Below are positions 17,124 to 55,582 of a DNA stretch of 64,000 bases, piece after piece. Below the pieces are notes generated by a model. That model did no database searches and was not told where the DNA came from. It saw only the letters and a program-made list of their open reading frames with translations. Positions within the stretch are counted from its first letter, which is position 1, and each line of letters starts with the position of its first letter. This stretch comes from Thiorhodovibrio litoralis. Lineage in GTDB: Bacteria > Pseudomonadota > Gammaproteobacteria > Chromatiales > Chromatiaceae. The DNA is taken from the NCBI RefSeq assembly GCF_033954455.1, contig NZ_CP121473.1, forward strand, positions 2,094,501 to 2,158,500. The letters are read 5' to 3'. A program made the position numbers and the translations under genes.

Positions 17124-17585
17124 TTAGCGCCCCGCCGCAAATTTCGAGGCGATCTGGTACTGACGCTCGATCTCTCCTTCCGCACTTGAGTCTTCGGCCT
17201 CGACGAGCTCGCAATTATTGGCCATGCGCGCCTGCATCGCGGCCTTCCATGCGCGGTTGACCTTTTCCGTTATCAGCTCATCCGGTGTGAGCGCCGCGGC
17301 CGTGGCTGCGGCGACAAAATGATCCGCCTGCGCGAGCCAATCGGTCTCCTTGCCGCAGTCGGTATAGGTCTTGGTGGCCCAGGCCTTGGCGGCGCGATAA
17401 GCGTCCTCCAGCGCATCCGGGCTGGCGTCATCGCGCAAGCCGGTGGCGATCGCGCGCTTCACCCGATCATCCTGGCACAGATGAATCACGCTCTCGACAA
17501 ACCCAAGTCCGAGGCGGCGTTGATCGTCGCCAGACAGAGATTCAAGCAGGGCACGCAGTTGTTGATCGTTCGCGATGGTGGTCAT
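17124..17585 (-). CDS. Alanine-rich protein of unknown function
   Basis: 153 residues starting MTTIANDQQLRALLESL from the ATG at 17585, which has CAGGAG a few bases upstream; the frame is open to 17675 only because the leader repeats carry no stop. No signal peptide or membrane segment is seen. It is helical and rich in A, with repeated A-x-x-A-A spacing (DAYRAAKAWATKTY, HFVAAATAAALT) and an acidic C-terminal part. The pattern faintly resembles alanine-rich putative immunity proteins, but I do not claim the family. It stands alone between the hyn operon and a GGDEF-EAL gene. Four copies of a 13-bp repeat occupy its 5' leader. Confidence 0.7.
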   Translation of the reverse strand: MTTIANDQQLRALLESLSGDDQRRLGLGFVESVIHLCQDDRVKRAIATGLRDDASPDALEDAYRAAKAWATKTYTDCGKETDWLAQADHFVAAATAAALTPDELITEKVNRAWKAAMQARMANNCELVEAEDSSAEGEIERQYQIASKFAAGR

Positions 17586-17599
17586 CGAATGGCTCCTGA

Positions 17600-17651
17600 T
17601 CTGGTGATAAGGTCTGGTGATAAGGTCTGGTGATAAGGTCTGGTGATAAGG
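17600..17651. repeat. 13-bp tandem repeat, four copies, in the 5' leader of the gene at 17585
   Basis: TCTGGTGATAAGG is repeated four times without change at 17600, 17613, 17626 and 17639, followed by a partial copy. It ends about 15 bp upstream of the start codon, next to the ribosome binding site. An exact repeat this close to a start could affect translation or vary in copy number. Confidence 0.95.
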
Positions 17652-17742
17652 TCTGTTGACGGGCGCTGGTGACAAGCCAGCCTACAGCAATAACCAGCGC
17701 AATGTCCGATGCATTTTTACCCTTAGTTGATGGTCATACTGC

Positions 17743-23594: not shown

Positions 23595-25382
23595 ATGGCC
23601 GAGTTCCTCGGGCTGGGCTGGCAGGGAATCTTCACCTTGGGGCTGGTTCTGGTCTGCTTCGGGCTGCTGGCGGGAACCCGCATCGCCCCGGATATCGTCA
23701 CATCCGGCGTTCTGACACTGCTATTGGTGATGGGAATTCTGACCCCGACGGAGGCGCTGGCTGGTTTTTCCAATGCTGGCATGCTGACGGTGGCGGTACT
23801 CTATGTGGTGGTGACCGGACTGACCGAAACCGGTGCAGTGGGGTGGATCAGCCAGTCGCTGCTGGGCCGGCCGCGCAGCGACATGGGCGCGCAGCTGCGG
23901 CTGATGCTGCCGGTGGCGGGCCTGAGCGCCTTTCTGAATAATACCCCGGTGGTGGCCATTTTTATCCCAGCGGTGACCGACTGGGCCAAACGCAACCGTC
24001 TGCAATTATCCAAACTGCTGATTCCGCTCAGTTACGCCAGCATCGCCGGAGGTGCCTGCACGCTCATTGGCACTAGCACCAATCTGGTCGTCAATGGGCT
24101 TTATGTGGAGCGTACCGGCGGCCCCGGCTTTGGCCTGTTCGACCTGGTATGGATTGGACTGCCGCTGGTGGTGACGGTGTTGTCTTTTCTGGTGCTTACC
24201 GGGCGCTGGCTGCTGCCGACACGGGCGTCCGCGGCGGCGGTGTTCGCGGATGTCCGGCGCTATACGGTCGAGATGCTGGTTGAGCCGAACAGTGCACTGG
24301 TTGGCAAGAGTATCGAGCAGGCCGGATTGCGGCAGCTGCCTGGGCTGTTTCTGGTGGAGATTGAGCGTCAGGAGCGCATTATCCCGGCCGTCTCGTCCCA
24401 GGAACCCCTGTACGCGAGCGATCGGCTGGTGTTCGCCGGGGTGATCGATTCAGTGATGGATTTGCAGCGTATCCGTGGTTTGGTGCCAGCGACAGATCAG
24501 GTGTTTAAGCTCGACGGCGCCCGGCGCGACCGTTGTTTCGTCGAGGTGGTGTTGTCGAACAAATGCCCACTGATCGGACGGACGGTGCGCGAGGGACGCT
24601 TTCGTGCCCGCTACAATGCCGTCATCATCGCCTTGTCGCGCAATGGCGAAAGGGTGCGGGGAAAGATCGGCGATATTGCACTGCAGCCGGGCGATACGCT
24701 GCTACTGGAATCGCGCCCGGATTTTGTGTTTCAACAGCGCGATTCGCGCGATTTTCTGGTTGTCAGTCAGCTTGGCGACCAACATCCGCTCAGCCACGAG
24801 CGCGCGCCCGTGGCCATCGCCATTGTGGTGGCCATGGTGGCGGCGGCCGGTTTTGGCGTGCTGACGATGCTTGAGGCTGCCTTGCTGGCGGCCGGCGCCA
24901 TGATTGTCAGCCGTTGCACACCGGGGCGGGTGGCGCGTCGCGCGCCAGATCTCCAAGTATTGACGGTGATCGCGACATCGTTCGGTATCGGGGCGGCGCT
25001 CGAGAAAACCGGCGGCGCGACGGTGCTGGCCAGCTCGTTGATTGGCCTGGCGCAAGGCAGCCCCTGGTTGTCCTTGGCGCTGCTGTTTCTCGCCACTGCG
25101 GTGCTGACGGCGATCGCGACCAATAATGTCGCGGCGGTCCTAGCCTTTCCGATCGCGCTCGACACCGCGGCCCAGATGGGCGTTGATCCGGCGGGCTTCA
25201 TGGTGGTGGTGATGATCGCCGCGTCCGCCAGCTTCGCCACGCCGATCGGATATCAGACCAATCTCATGGTGTTTAGTGTCGGCGGCTACAAATTCTCGGA
25301 CTTCGTACGCGTCGGCGTGCCCTTGACCGCGCTGGTCGGCGCGGTGACCGTGCTGCTGGTCCCCTTGATCTGGCGGTTTTGA
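23595..25382 (+). CDS. DASS/SLC13-family permease with two RCK_C (TrkA-C) domains
   Basis: 595 residues. Hydrophobic helices at about 8-190 carry the first family half with the SNT-like AFLNNTPVVA and GTSTNL loop; two RCK_C domains lie in the cytoplasmic middle (VGKSIEQAGLRQL and IGRTVREGRFRAR, about 220-390); the second membrane half includes ATNNVAAVLAFP and the GYQTNLMVF loop. The architecture matches bacterial YfbS/SAC1-like transporters of sulfate, dicarboxylates or related anions; the substrate cannot be told from sequence. In a sulfur bacterium an anion such as sulfate is a reasonable guess. The stop codon at 25380 is the first copy of a 15-bp tandem repeat. Confidence 0.88.
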   Translation: MAEFLGLGWQGIFTLGLVLVCFGLLAGTRIAPDIVTSGVLTLLLVMGILTPTEALAGFSNAGMLTVAVLYVVVTGLTETGAVGWISQSLLGRPRSDMGAQLRLMLPVAGLSAFLNNTPVVAIFIPAVTDWAKRNRLQLSKLLIPLSYASIAGGACTLIGTSTNLVVNGLYVERTGGPGFGLFDLVWIGLPLVVTVLSFLVLTGRWLLPTRASAAAVFADVRRYTVEMLVEPNSALVGKSIEQAGLRQLPGLFLVEIERQERIIPAVSSQEPLYASDRLVFAGVIDSVMDLQRIRGLVPATDQVFKLDGARRDRCFVEVVLSNKCPLIGRTVREGRFRARYNAVIIALSRNGERVRGKIGDIALQPGDTLLLESRPDFVFQQRDSRDFLVVSQLGDQHPLSHERAPVAIAIVVAMVAAAGFGVLTMLEAALLAAGAMIVSRCTPGRVARRAPDLQVLTVIATSFGIGAALEKTGGATVLASSLIGLAQGSPWLSLALLFLATAVLTAIATNNVAAVLAFPIALDTAAQMGVDPAGFMVVVMIAASASFATPIGYQTNLMVFSVGGYKFSDFVRVGVPLTALVGAVTVLLVPLIWRF

Positions 25383-25454
25383 TCGAGCCGACTTTGATCA
25401 ACCCAGTTTTGATCGACTCAGTCTTGATCGACCCGGTTGTGATCAACGGCAACC
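25377..25454. repeat. 15-bp TGATC-core tandem repeat spanning the permease stop codon, five copies
   Basis: TGATC occurs at 25380, 25395, 25410, 25425 and 25440, an exact 15-bp period, with degenerate flanks of the kind TTTTGATCGACYCAG. The TGA of the first copy is the stop codon of the upstream gene. No stem-loop explains it. Confidence 0.9.
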
Positions 25455-25739
25455 CGTTCGACGCGGGCTTGCTCAGCGCGAAATTGGTCGCTGACGGGGC
25501 GGCGTGGTGCTGGCCGGCCCGACGCGGCCTATCTATAAGGTCGAAATATCGGCCTCGCACTCCCACGATCCAACTATTTCCGCACTTAACCTGCGCCAGG
25601 TCAGTTTTTTTCTTAACACCCAAATTGCAAAAGGTTAATATTAGGGGGGTGAGCCGCAGAGCTCCAAGTCCGTCGCTCGATCGATCTGCCGTTCGGCTGA
25701 CGATCTACTTACCATCGATCTATCATGGGAGGAAATTCC
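25383..25739. other. Intergenic region: repeat array, then promoter and leader of the next gene
   Basis: The first 70 bp hold the tandem repeat. The remainder has no convincing open frame; it holds a candidate sigma70 promoter at 25613-25641 and a leader of about 90 bases. Confidence 0.6.
25613..25641 (+). promoter_or_regulatory. Candidate sigma70 promoter for the membrane protein at 25740
   Basis: TTAACA at 25613-25618 and TAATAT at 25636-25641 are separated by exactly 17 bp. Transcription would begin near 25648, leaving a leader of about 90 bases. The surrounding DNA is AT-rich compared with its neighbours. Confidence 0.5.
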
Positions 25740-30407: not shown

Positions 30408-32013
30408 CAGGCCATCACTGGAAAAATCCCGGCGCATAGGCGGGCGTTCCAAGGGAATGCGCCATAAGCACCGCGCCGTGACAATAGCGCAACGAGACAG
30501 CCTGCCCGAGTCCTTCGAGTCGTGGCTCGATCCAGACCGTGCGTTACCGGAACCTTCACGCTTCTGGCCAACGGATTTCGGTCGTCCCTGGTGGACGGGC
30601 CCCATCGTGTTGCTCACGGTGATCATCACCTACGCCCTTGTGCAGACAGACGTTTCGGATAAGGCGGATCTGGATTATCTCGCCGTGATGTTCGTCGCGG
30701 CCTGCCTCCCTCTATTCGCCGCCAGCGCGATCGCGCTGCGTCGCTGGATTCCGGCGACTCGCGCAAGATGGCTGAGGAAAAAAGGACGCTGGCGCGATGG
30801 GCTCCATCTTCTCAGCGACAGTCTGCTCTATGTTCGCGGGAACAGTGTCACCATCATCGAGCGCGGCCGGTTAAGTGCGTTGCGCACCAAGCAGGACGCT
30901 GATCAGATCAACAAGAGAGAGAAACGCGATGGGAAGCATCGCCTGCGACCGGCGATCGGATATAGGGATGATCGGGGAGAACAGGCATTCTTGGTGATTG
31001 ATGAGAACCGAGAACTCTGGTGGTCATTGCTCGCCGCCCGCTGGGATGACTGGCGTCGCACTGGAAAGCCACCGCGGGCAGTTGAACCGACACAGGCGCG
31101 CAAGGTGTTAGCTAAGTGGTTGCCAAACATCATTTATTTACAACTTCTTTACATTGTCATGGTGCTCTTAGGCGTCATGCTGTTTTTGATCTTGGCGGAC
31201 TTTGTCGATCCCAACACCGCATTCATCGTGAATGCTGGGCTTGGTGTTTCGATGATGATATTTGGTTTCATTGGCGCCGCAATTGCGCTTCAAAAGCCCT
31301 TGCGCCGCTGGTTCCCGAATCTTAATGTGGAAAACTACGGCAGCGGCTACGCGGGCTTGCTTGGTGCATTTACGATGGTGAGCGTTCTTTACGTCGGCAG
31401 CCAAGGCAATGCCTGGTGGCAAACCGCTTTTGCTGATCGAATACCTGATATCAATTTGGCTGAGGCGATTCAGTACAAGGGCGAAAACTTCATGCTCGGT
31501 CTGCGCGATGTCCGCGTCGCGCAAGGCAGCTTCGGCGTCGACTACGGCGCATATCAGCCTGAGGTCTACAACCATTCTAGCCGCAGATCTGAAACCGGTC
31601 GCTATCACTATGTGGCGCGACTCGTCTCGACCCGTTCCCCAGAAACCTGCGTGTACTTGGGCGCTGTCGAGAATGATCCACGCATTAAGACTAAGCGCCG
31701 AAGCAGCGCGGAGCGCCTCCTAACGCTGGCACCCTATTATCGCGAACCCCTTGATCTGGGCCCCCTTGATCTGGGTTCCCTTGATTTGGGCCGCACGGAC
31801 ACGGCAAGCGCATTCAAAAAGGCACTCGACGACCTGGAAGGCGGTGAAATCCGAAGGTGCCGTAATATGCTCCTCGAACCAATCGCGGATCCAGATGCGC
31901 TTGCCGGAGAAGAGTTGCGCAAGCTTTGGTGGGTCATCCTAGCTCTGCAGCTTTCCCCCTTGGTGCTGTTGTCGATCTGGACTTGGTTCAAATGGGAAAA
32001 CCGCTGGCTCTAA
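30400..32013 (+). CDS. Large membrane protein of unknown function
   Basis: 537 residues. A basic N-terminus of about 65 residues is followed by two helices (IVLLTVIITYALV, YLAVMFVAACLPLFAASAIAL), a cytoplasmic region with a PH-like look (LLSDSLLYVRGNSVTIIERGRLSALR), then three more helices (IIYLQLLYIVMVLLGVMLFLI and following), an extracytoplasmic region of about 150 residues and a last helix near the C-terminus. A 15-bp tandem repeat adds three LDLG units near residues 450-465. It starts inside the preceding gene (8-bp overlap). No family recognised. Confidence 0.7.
   Translation: MASRPSLEKSRRIGGRSKGMRHKHRAVTIAQRDSLPESFESWLDPDRALPEPSRFWPTDFGRPWWTGPIVLLTVIITYALVQTDVSDKADLDYLAVMFVAACLPLFAASAIALRRWIPATRARWLRKKGRWRDGLHLLSDSLLYVRGNSVTIIERGRLSALRTKQDADQINKREKRDGKHRLRPAIGYRDDRGEQAFLVIDENRELWWSLLAARWDDWRRTGKPPRAVEPTQARKVLAKWLPNIIYLQLLYIVMVLLGVMLFLILADFVDPNTAFIVNAGLGVSMMIFGFIGAAIALQKPLRRWFPNLNVENYGSGYAGLLGAFTMVSVLYVGSQGNAWWQTAFADRIPDINLAEAIQYKGENFMLGLRDVRVAQGSFGVDYGAYQPEVYNHSSRRSETGRYHYVARLVSTRSPETCVYLGAVENDPRIKTKRRSSAERLLTLAPYYREPLDLGPLDLGSLDLGRTDTASAFKKALDDLEGGEIRRCRNMLLEPIADPDALAGEELRKLWWVILALQLSPLVLLSIWTWFKWENRWL
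31750..31794. repeat. 15-bp in-frame tandem repeat, three copies
   Basis: TTGAT occurs at 31751, 31766 and 31781, an exact 15-bp period (unit like CTTGATCTGGGCCCC). It adds LDLGP, LDLGS and LDLGR to the protein and resembles the repeats at gene ends at 25.38 and 42.23 kb. Confidence 0.9.
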
Positions 32014-37339: not shown

Positions 37340-37924
37340 ATGTTTGGCCATCGCCTCGGCAGTCTGTTTCGGTTTCTGATAGGCACCCTGGTGCTGCAGG
37401 GTGCGACCGTGCTGGTCACCTATACCGCGCTGCAGACCGACATTGCGATGACCTGGCCGCTGTTCGTTGCAGTTGGCGCCAGCTCTGGGGTGTTGGTGAC
37501 CCTATGGTTCGAGTCGATTGCCGGTAATGTCAGCGACAAGGTGCTGTCGCGCGCACAGCAGCGCCATTCGCGCGAGCGCGAGAAAATTCGTGTCGAGGCC
37601 GAGCGCCAGCGCGCCAAACTCACAGTCAAGCAGACCAAAATGAAGGGCAACGCCGGCATTAAGCTGCGCACCGGGATCGCTGTCGGCGGCATGGCGGGTG
37701 TTGGCGTTGCCATGATAGTGGCTCAGTTCATGACGGTCGGGCTCTTGACCATTGCGACTGCTGGCGGTGCGGCACTTGGCTACGGGGTGCGGGTGCGACA
37801 GGAACGCCGCCTGCGCAGCCGACTCGAAGATAATCAGAACCTGCTGCTGTCGGAACCGCAGGACGCGCTGCTGGCGCTGGAAGAGCAGCCCAGTAAGCGC
37901 TCGCGCCGCAAGAAACTGACCTGA
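37340..37924 (+). CDS. Small membrane protein of unknown function
   Basis: 194 residues. Two N-terminal helices (LFRFLIGTLVLQGATVLVTY, WPLFVAVGASSGVLVTLWF), a charged central helix of coiled-coil type (QQRHSREREKIRVEAERQRA, about 72-100), then two more helices (GIAVGGMAGVGVAMIVAQF, GLLTIATAGGAALGYGV) and a basic tail. GGAGG lies five bases before the ATG. No family recognised. Its TGA stop at 37922 is the first unit of a 13-bp tandem repeat. Confidence 0.75.
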   Translation: MFGHRLGSLFRFLIGTLVLQGATVLVTYTALQTDIAMTWPLFVAVGASSGVLVTLWFESIAGNVSDKVLSRAQQRHSREREKIRVEAERQRAKLTVKQTKMKGNAGIKLRTGIAVGGMAGVGVAMIVAQFMTVGLLTIATAGGAALGYGVRVRQERRLRSRLEDNQNLLLSEPQDALLALEEQPSKRSRRKKLT

Positions 37925-37973
37925 TCGATTGGTCTGATCGATTGTTTTGGTCGAGTGCTCTGGTCGACTGGCT
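37922..37973. repeat. 13-bp tandem repeat starting at a stop codon, four copies
   Basis: TGATC at 37922 and 37935 and TGGTC at 37948 and 37961 give an exact 13-bp period (units like TGATCGATTGGTC). The first TGA is the stop codon of the preceding gene. Confidence 0.9.
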
Positions 37974-42219: not shown

Positions 42220-42264
42220 CGCAAGCTCAGATCAAAGAAGCCCAGATCAAAGAAGCTGAGCTCA
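42220..42264. repeat. 15-bp tandem repeat starting at the phosphoketolase stop codon, three copies
   Basis: Read on the minus strand, TGAGC (containing the stop codon, from 42264) is followed by TGATC at 42249 and 42234, an exact 15-bp period with units like TTTGATCTGGGCTTC. Confidence 0.9.
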
Positions 42265-44697
42265 AAACGGCCAGGTCCAGTTGTCGATCTCGGGCGTATC
42301 GATGCCGTACTTGTGTGCGTGATTGCGGCACTCGATCTGCTTGTCGCGCAACCGCTCGCGCACATGGGCACCTTTCACCTGCAATTCTGGCAGGCGGTTG
42401 ATGGCATCGATGGCGAGCGTGAAGCGGTCGATCTCGTTGTTGATGGCGAGTTCCATCGGGGTGTTGATATTGCCCTTTTCCTTGTAGCCGCGCACATGAA
42501 AATTATGGTGATTGGTGCGGGCATAGGTCAGGCGATGGATCAGCCAGGGATAGCCGTGGAAGTTGAAGATCACATGGCGGTCCTTGGTGAAGAGCCCATC
42601 GAAGTCGCGATCCGACAGGCCATGCGGATGCTCGCGCTCGGGCAGCAGGCGCAGCAGGTCCACCACATTGATGAAGCGGGTTTTCAACTCCGGGAAGTTT
42701 TCCCGCAGCAGCGCAGTGGCGGCCAGTGCTTCCTTGGTGGGGATGTCGCCGCAGCCGACCATGACCAGATCGGGTTCCGCGCCCTCGTCATTGCTGGCCC
42801 AGTCCCAAATCCCCAGGCCCTTGGTGCAGTGGCGAATCGCCGCGTCCATGTCGAGAAACTGCAGGTGCTGCTGCTTGTCGGAGACAATAACGTTTACATA
42901 GTCACGGCTTTTCAGGCAGTGATTGGCGGTGGACAGCAGGGTGTTCACATCCGGGGGCAGATAGATGCGAATTACATCCGGGTCCTTGTTGACCACCACA
43001 TCGAGAAAGCCCGGGTCCTGATGGGTAAAGCCATTGTGGTCCTGACGCCAGACGGTGGAGGTGATCAACAGATTGAGCGAGGAAATGGGCGCGCGCCAGG
43101 GAATGTCCTGGGTGATGGACAGCCATTTGGCATGCTGATTGAACATGGAGTCGATCACATGCACAAAGGCCTCGTAGGTTGAGAAGAACCCATGGCGGCC
43201 TGTCAGCAGATAGCCCTCCAGCCAGCCTTCGAGTGTGTGCTCGGAGAGCATTTCCATCACCCGGCCATCGGGGGACAGCTCGCCGCCGTCGTCATCCTCG
43301 GGCAGGTAGTCCTCCAGCCACAGCTTCTTGCTGACCTCATAGATGGCTTGGAGCTTGTTGGAGGTATTCTCATCCGGTCCGAAGACGCGGAAATTGGTCA
43401 TGTTCTCGGCCATGATGTCGCGCAGGAAGACCCCAAGCGGATAGGTGTTGCCGGCGCGCTGCACCCCAGGTTTGGGCACATCCAGGCCATAGTTCTGGAA
43501 GTCCGGCATGCGCAGGCTGCGGCGCAGCAGGCCGCCGTTGGCATGGGGCGTGGCGCTCATGCGCAGGGTGCCGGTCGGGGCCAGTGCTTTTAGCTCGGGG
43601 ATGAGCTTGCCTTCCTCATCGAACAACTCCTCGGGCTTGTAGCTGCGCAGCCAGGCTTCCAATTGCGCCAGGTGCTCCGGATTGCCGTGCATGCCGGACA
43701 GGGGCACCTGATGGGCGCGCCAGAAGCCTTCCACCTTGTGGCCGTCGACCTCTTTCGGCCCAGTCCAGCCCTTGGGCGAGCGCAGTATGATCATCGGCCA
43801 AATGGCGCGCTTCGTCTGATTGAGCAAGGGACCGCCATCGCGCGCCTGCTGCTGAATGGAGCGAATCTTGGCGTGACATTCATCGAGCGTGGCGGCCATG
43901 GCCTGGTGCATGGTCATGGGGTCATCGCCCTCGACGAAATGCGGCTCCCAGCCATAGCCGCGCATCAGTGCGGCCAGTTCCTCATGCGGGATACGCGAGA
44001 GCAGGGTAGGGTTGTTGATCTTATAACCGTTCAGATGCAGCACCGGCAGCACCGCTCCGTCGCGGATGGGATTGAGGAACTTACTCGAATGCCAGGATGT
44101 GGCCAGCGGGCCGGTCTCGGCCTCGCCGTCACCGACCACCACGGTGACTAGCAGGTCCGGGTTGTCGAAAGCGGCGCCAAAGGCATGGGAGATGGAATAG
44201 CCCAGCTCACCACCCTCGTGAATCGATCCGGGCGTCTCGGGCGTGCAGTGCGAGCCGATGCCGCCGGGGAAGGAGAACTGTTTGAAGAAGGACCGCAGCC
44301 CTTCCTCGTCTTCGCTCTTGTTCGGATAGATTTCCGAGTAAGTCCCTTCCAGATACACAGGCGCGAGCAAGCCCGGAGCGCCATGGCCCGGGCCGGCAAG
44401 GAAAATGGCTGACTGCTGGTGCTCGCGGATGAGGCGGTTCATGTGCACATAGACGAACGCCAGGCCGGGGCTCGCACCCCAGTGGCCGAGCAGACGCTGC
44501 TTGATGTGATCCTCGTTCAGCGGCTCGCGCAGAAGCGGGTTGTCGCGCAGGTAGATCATCCCGGCGGCGAGGTAGCAGCAGGCGCGCCAGTAGGCGTCCA
44601 TGGCGGTGAGCTGCTCGCTTGATGGCGCCGCCGTGGTTGGCTTGGTGTGCGGTGCTGGCGTGATGCGGTCGCTAGTGATCTGCGGGGATGCCGTCAT
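42262..44697 (-). CDS. xfp: Xylulose-5-phosphate/fructose-6-phosphate phosphoketolase
   Basis: 811 residues. Family signatures are visible: [52 protein letters not shown], and the thiamine-diphosphate-binding [16 protein letters not shown]. The enzyme splits xylulose-5-phosphate (and fructose-6-phosphate) with phosphate into acetyl-phosphate and a sugar phosphate. AGGAGAACATC precedes the ATG. It lies between gluQ and glgP on the same strand. Together with glgP it suggests a route from stored glycogen to acetyl-phosphate. No acetate kinase is adjacent. Confidence 0.97.
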
Positions 44698-54730: not shown

Positions 54731-55582
54731 ATGAGCACGCTCGAATCACTCAAGGAAACCGTCAAGCGCGAACTGCCCGTGTGGCTCGAATCCGACCCGG
54801 CTTTTCGCAAGGCCATTCTCGCGCTGACCAATCATCGCTACAGCCCACGCGCGGAAACCAGCGACTGGTTCCATCAGACGCTGGAGGAAATGCGCCGCGA
54901 GCGCGAGCGCCAGGATGCACTGTGGCGCAAAAATGACGAGCGCCTGGAGCGCGAACGCCTGGAGGCCGACCGCAAGTGGGAAGAACAAAACCGCAAGTGG
55001 GACGCCAACCAAGCCGAACTGGCTGCCCTGCGCTTGGAGCAAAGCAGCAAGTGGGAAGAACAAAACCGCAAATGGGAAGAACAAAACCGCAAGTGGGAAG
55101 AACAAAACCGCAAGTGGGATGCCAATCAGGCAGAACTCAAAGCCCTGCATCAAGAAAGCCTGGCGCTGGGCAAACGCATTGACCGCAGCATCGGCGCCCT
55201 GGGCGCGCGCTGGGGGCTGCGCTAAGAAAAAGCCTTTCGTGATGCGCTCGCCGGAATTCTCGAAAAGACCTTCGGCGTCGAGGTGCTCAATGTCTGCGAA
55301 TACGACGACGATGGCGAGGTCTTCGGTCGCCCCGACCAGATTGAACTCGACGTCATCATCCGCAACGGCCTGCTGATTATGTGCGAACTCAAATCCTCAA
55401 TCGACAAAGCCGGCATGTACAGTTTTGAGCGCAAGGCTCGATTCTACGAGCGGCGCCATGACCGTCAGGCAAACCGGCTGATCGTCATCTCCCCGATGAT
55501 CGACAGCCGCGCCATGGATGTCGCCAAGCGTCTAGGGATTGAAACCTACGGCGAACCTGAGGAGGTCTCGAACCAAGCCTAG
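54731..55582 (+). pseudogene. DUF3782 PD-(D/E)xK nuclease-like gene with one in-frame TAA
   Basis: The frame starts at the ATG at 54731 (GGAG eight bases upstream) with MSTLESLKETVKRELPVWLE, runs through a coiled-coil built of KWEEQNR and KWDANQAEL repeats, and meets TAA at 55223-55225 right after GALGARWGLR. The same frame goes on without a further stop to 55582 with the nuclease-like part: FRDALAGILEKTFGVEVLNV, VFGRPDQIELDVII, MCELKSS and FERKARFYERRH. A single base change therefore breaks an otherwise whole gene of about 283 codons. The D and ELK residues of the nuclease core are kept. Confidence 0.8.
54974..55132. repeat. 21-bp coding repeats (KWEEQNR units)
   Basis: AAGTGGGAAGAACAAAACCGC occurs at 54974, 55049, 55070 (one change) and 55091. 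A KWDANQAEL unit follows at 54995 and 55112, so both a single unit and a larger block were duplicated. The units fit a heptad coiled coil. Confidence 0.92.

Follow-up and report, generated by a model that had tools for sequence, protein, structure and literature searches.

Three genes in the window, the whole 64,000-nucleotide stretch analysed here (positions 2094501-2158500 of a single-contig genome of 5,466,623 bp, referred to as G000), end in short tandem repeats built around the core TGATC, and in each case the first TGA of the repeat is also the stop codon of the gene. This arrangement raises the question of whether a local process or selection acts on TGATC at gene ends, as proposed in the first-pass annotation, or whether ordinary repeats simply come to lie there. 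The genes, the arrays and the motif that may have given rise to one of them are located as follows:

23595-25382, plus strand: CitMHS/TrkA_C permease gene (Pfam CitMHS, 1.9e-72; TrkA_C, 1.3e-22)
25365-25370, plus strand: TTGATC within the permease tail, read as Leu-Ile codons; candidate seed; the next TTGATC, which overlaps the stop, starts 14 bp later at 25379
25380-25454, plus strand: permease array, five imperfect 15-bp units of the form TGATC-N10; the permease stop is the first TGA, by direct reading of the sequence
37340-37924, plus strand: gene for a small conserved protein, with no Pfam match
37922-37973, plus strand: small-protein array, four imperfect 13-bp units; the small-protein stop is the first TGA
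42220-42264, minus strand: phosphoketolase array, three imperfect 15-bp units (TGAGC, TGATC and TGATC); the phosphoketolase stop is the first TGA
42262-44697, minus strand: phosphoketolase (XFP) gene (Pfam XFP_N, 2.5e-175; XFP; XFP_C)

The repeat registers and the coincidence of the first TGA with a stop codon, as originally reported, are both confirmed. Direct reading finds TGATC five times at 15-bp steps from 25380, the series TGATC, TGATC, TGGTC and TGGTC at 13-bp steps from 37922, and, on the minus strand, TGAGC, TGATC and TGATC every 15 bp from 42264, and Tandem Repeats Finder calls arrays at all three loci (25393-25447, 37921-37971 and 42223-42266). The full pentamer is thus present at two of the three array stops, that of the phosphoketolase gene being TGAGC, and the units are loose copies of one another, with a mean pairwise identity of 0.63 in the permease array and 0.73 in each of the other two. 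All three genes are real, the permease and phosphoketolase being recognized by Pfam and the small protein having a match in 11 of the 38 genomes searched (its own genome counted); the closest named relative of the permease belongs to Rhabdochromatium marinum (83%), followed by other Chromatiaceae, which makes a purple sulfur bacterium of this family the most likely host. The three arrays are beyond chance, because the detector finds none in order-1 Markov sequence (a single sequence of equal noncoding length, 0 arrays at every setting tried), and random 260-nt sequences, 400 per setting, likewise returned 0 arrays.

A background for these arrays was drawn from 2.40 Mb of G000 lying beyond the window, scanned at three detector settings, with expectations taken from 300 random placements; genes were called with our own script, not a standard annotator, over 1.664 Mb including the window and over a further 0.80 Mb. 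Short tandem arrays are common in the noncoding DNA of this background, with 85 at the strict setting, equal to 207 per noncoding Mb, and 121 or 117 at the others, and array units across the genome are diverse in sequence. Outside the window, the period of an array within a gene is almost always a multiple of three (74 against 0, 112 against 5 and 123 against 1 at the three settings), which supports the gene calls. The scan of these 2.40 Mb for arrays at stops, along the lines of the genome-wide check originally suggested for the proposal, came out negative: arrays spanning a stop codon occur at the level of random placement, with 7, 15 and 17 observed against 9.3, 12.4 and 15.0 expected (p 0.84, 0.25 and 0.33). 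A bump in the recurrence of 5-mers and 6-mers about 27-35 nt past stops, seen in the first sample, was absent from the second and was dropped.

Outside the window, 24 stop-touching cases were found (23 arrays, one of which touches two converging genes), a density that predicts 0.64 per 64 kb and places three or more such arrays in about 2.3 of about 85 windows. By our own detector the window holds a fourth, an unrelated 10-bp array at 17124; since four or more have a probability of 0.004 per window and are expected in only about 0.36 windows per genome, the window lies on the array-rich side. Within the window alone, 3' ends host 4 of the 7 noncoding arrays where 1.3 would be expected (p 0.023), a figure to be read with the fact that the window was picked for them. 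The 5 arrays of the window whose period is not a multiple of three amount to 78 per Mb, compared with 17.1 per Mb outside it; elsewhere, 150 kb of E. coli K-12 contain no such array, the 17 kb of Rhabdochromatium a single one, ten other Chromatiaceae loci (147 kb) also one, and the remaining permease-relative loci (866 kb, two more of them labelled Chromatiaceae) 9. From these small samples, the genome studied here may be somewhat richer in arrays than the compared loci, but not strikingly so. The stops in the 24 outside cases are 10 TGA, 9 TAG and 5 TAA, a share of TAG above that of the genome (in the first sample, TAG accounts for 220 of 1297 stops).

TGATC itself does not stand out against this background. 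Of 1262 stops, 799 of them TGA, 66 occur in this context, the fourth commonest, and TGATC is mildly over-represented relative to a third-order Markov expectation (945 against 818 in noncoding and 3129 against 2531 in coding DNA). Among pentamers that form arrays of three equally spaced copies, it ranks 17th by noncoding count, within a large tie, with two clusters each in noncoding and coding DNA over 1.664 Mb. None of the 24 stop-touching cases outside the window has TGATC at its stop, and the pentamer at a stop, whichever it may be, recurs 11-16 bp away for only 14 of the 1109 stops examined, whereas offsets from +20 to +80 give 22.2 on average (stops outside the window, with at least 60 free nt downstream and away from stretch ends). 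On the strength of this rank, this absence and this shortfall, the suggestion that a special process or selection acts on TGATC at gene ends is not upheld. Past 849 stops, TGATC was counted 151 times on the sense strand and 131 times on the complement (five bins summed).

Clusters of three TGATC-N10 units were also counted in related genomes, namely G001 and G002, which are species of the same genus, and G006, which belongs to another genus of the family (one genome per species). There are 7 in G000, 8 in G001, 2 in G002 and 2 in G006, and those that start at a called stop amount to 1 of 7 in G000, which is the window's own, and 0 of 8 in G001. The flanks were inspected for the six non-window clusters of G000, all eight in G001 and both in G002. 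The G000 clusters comprise four in called genes, the window's own, one upstream of a gene and one with no called gene nearby; in G001, called genes contain three clusters and no cluster starts at a called stop, although the one at locus L264 may follow a gene that was missed, and G002 has one in a called gene and one in a spacer. A backward control pattern gave zero matches, which was striking at first and was then discounted, the 26 forward matches stemming from only 7 places. The TGATC core at the three stops appears to be a coincidence and not a signal. This is a clean negative, in that a motif at three gene ends dissolves once the genome background is counted: there is no evidence for a TGATC-specific process, and the arrays are real but ordinary, independent of one another, and begin where coding constraint ends.

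Replication slippage, one of several causes originally put forward, is judged the best explanation of the arrays; it is inferred, as are their seeds and their neutrality, and they are very probably young, neutral and slippage-born tandem duplications in spacer DNA, minisatellite-like and otherwise ordinary. A chance short direct repeat near a gene end would allow the replicating strand to slip and duplicate 13-15 bp, further slippage would add units, and later point mutations would blur them. For the two 15-bp arrays the seed was probably the gene's own tail, which in the permease would consist of the Leu-Ile codons (TTGATC) and, 14 bp further on, the TTGATC in which the final base of the Phe codon joins the stop. 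The permease tail agrees with its array consensus at 10 of 15 positions, a match equalled by 11 of 1297 gene tails, its own included, and the XFP tail at 9 of 15, equalled by 15 of 1297, each match being the best of three registers in three uncorrected tests. The small-protein tail agrees at only 5 of 13 positions, as well as 662 of the 1297 tails do, and the tail-seed idea fails for the 13-bp array. Other points that speak against this explanation are the surplus of TAG among stop-touching cases, the richness of the window in arrays, the excess of arrays near 3' ends and the unrelated array at the small-protein end of G006, the last two set out below. Growth would be tolerated from the stop codon on, because within the gene only protein-preserving multiples of three survive. 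The first TGA would then be the stop almost necessarily, as any TGA-bearing array that reaches a gene end has the stop as its first in-frame TGA; stop-bearing arrays look 'anchored' since the gene end is, by definition, the first in-frame stop.

Comparison with the relatives bears on the age of the arrays. In G001, G002 and G006, respectively, the encoded proteins are 94, 93 and 93% (XFP), 88, 88 and 83% (permease) and 96, 84 and 80% (small protein) identical to those of the window. Searching plasmids with the phosphoketolase contributed nothing further. No array was detected at the homologous gene end of either the permease or the phosphoketolase in any of the three genomes, and because they are absent from relatives whose proteins are 83-94% identical, these two arrays would most simply be gains in the window's own lineage. 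The 13-bp array is common to the window and G001, where it is 73 bp longer; none was detected at the small-protein end of G002, and at that of G006 (L211) stands an 11-bp array of unrelated sequence (TGACCTGAAGC), which may be a second, independent expansion at the end of this gene. Altogether, the comparison took in 12 gene ends, from three genes in each of G000, G001, G002 and G006, and 5 of them bear an array, namely the window's three and the small-protein ends of G001 and G006. The earlier view of the arrays as separate, lineage-specific expansions and not one mobile repeat is borne out, given units that differ between loci and two arrays with no counterpart in the three relatives. Further 3' of the permease, a noncoding block at about 25577-25645 (a terminator-like stem, a T-run and a TTAACA...TAATAT promoter-like site) is closely similar in G001, G002 and G006, and the spacer ahead of it varies from about 10 to 200 bp across the relatives.

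A stronger form of the slippage explanation would hold that gene 3' ends are a favoured birthplace of arrays in this genus, with conserved tail codons and the stop often forming the seed repeat and growth proceeding into the spacer. This we consider unlikely. At the strict setting, 17 arrays overlap a 3' end or start within 12 nt of one where 13.5 are expected (p 0.19); the two looser settings give 29 (18.5 expected, p 0.003) and 31 (20.2 expected, p 0.023). Both halves of the sample point the same way, with 11, 19 and 20 against 8.7, 12.1 and 13.8 in the first (p 0.26, 0.033 and 0.057) and 6, 10 and 11 against 4.5, 6.7 and 6.9 in the second (p 0.28, 0.11 and 0.073). Arrays at gene starts show a deficit (7, 13 and 15 observed against 14.3, 19.8 and 21.9 expected) that fits promoter constraint, and the 3' excess and the 5' deficit are not separated from each other. 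The 3'-end preference is at most weak and dependent on the setting, with a matching deficit on the 5' side; if it held up, it would say a little about the places where spacer repeats arise.

Functional readings of the arrays fare worse. It is very unlikely that the repeated TGA units are backup stops that catch readthrough and are kept by selection. Although the 15-bp arrays keep TGA in one frame, the 13-bp array shifts it through the frames, and the next unit is headed by a stop of the same kind in 9 of the 24 outside stop-touching cases (by a reading of the list), TGA is not enriched on the sense strand past stops, which speaks against the readthrough protection first suggested: counts of TGA and its complement TCA are 248/254, 292/247, 263/278, 264/269 and 296/305 in five bins 3-100 nt downstream of 849 stops. 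Moreover, the stop pentamer recurs less often than pentamers at other positions, as noted above, and in the 13-bp array TGA has decayed to TGG in units 3 and 4 and, in G001, to TAA in unit 2.

Transcription terminators or rut-like sites would also be placed directly past a stop, as the arrays are, and the RNA of the permease array folds better than its shuffles (z -2.33) and has slightly more C than G (C 21, G 17). In the other two arrays, however, folding does not surpass that of shuffles (z 0.46 and 1.37) and G outnumbers C (C 9, G 17; C 10, G 12), none of the three holds a terminator-like site, the one near the permease lying at 25589-25601, about 135 bp beyond the array, and the window has no Rfam match at gathering thresholds, all of which makes this role highly improbable. 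A methylation-dependent or protein-binding site, whether for Dam/SeqA-like sequestration or for another binder, would account for GATC at regular 13-15 bp spacing and for the mild over-representation of TGATC, but it is scarcely credible: PF02086 (Dam-type methylase) and PF03925 (SeqA) have no matches in G000 or G001, with an E. coli control positive for both, TGATC occurs in just 8 of the 85 noncoding arrays outside the window, and for two of the three arrays G001, G002 and G006 show no conservation. The binding site at TGATC suggested at first reading is thus judged unlikely. That the arrays are copies of one dispersed mobile repeat, for which the common TGATC core and a G001 array at 2044448 similar by eye to the permease unit might speak, is barely tenable and largely refuted by unit diversity, since unit length and sequence differ between loci and the arrays of the genome have many cores.

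The preferred reading, of slippage from chance seeds, finds its nearest parallel in prokaryotic minisatellites or VNTRs formed when replication slips between short direct repeats, which likewise have short units, a presence and copy number that vary between relatives, and in-gene periods in multiples of three. Among the de novo tandem repeats set out in one report, perfect direct repeats bordered 3 of 11, and these were attributed to slippage (PMC4169377); the short direct repeat near the first unit of the permease array fits this, but the 13-bp array does not. In contrast, the case described there arose under selection inside a gene, whereas the window arrays are imperfect and lie just past genes. 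The TAACTGA heptamers of Beggiatoaceae, whose forward repeats give stops in three frames and so overlap only ORF ends, are listed in a Chromatiaceae member as well, Thiocystis violascens (PMC4679880). As described, they resemble the window arrays in being stop-containing, short and mostly intergenic, with some overlapping ORF ends, and differ in being one fixed heptamer genome-wide, found mostly just upstream of starts (PMC4679880); in the window, unit and period differ per locus, and gene starts are not favoured by arrays in this genome (see the start-side counts above). For Borg elements, tandem repeats with perfect copies and an enrichment in A are described (PMC9879509); the arrays seen here are imperfect. 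Our literature search found no paper on tandem repeats in Thiorhodovibrio genomes or on intergenic short tandem repeats in Chromatiaceae.

Three further repeats were observed in the window. A near-perfect 13-bp array (TCTGGTGATAAGG, 4.6 copies) occupies noncoding DNA at 17600-17659 between two minus-strand genes, and its near-perfect copies suggest that it is young; at two G001 loci (L280 and L281) reached through the neighbouring GGDEF/EAL gene, no array was detected at one setting, the best G001 match being 74% identical in a family with dozens of copies. Indeed, the GGDEF/EAL protein gave 86, 79 and 79 matches in G001, G002 and G006, respectively, a large cyclic-di-GMP gene set. A TTGATC-bearing 15-bp repeat of about 3 copies lies at 31747-31792, inside the called gene at 30457-32013, and has TTGATCTGGGC in common with the phosphoketolase array, while a 21-bp repeat of 3.8 copies is found within a called gene at 55040-55119.
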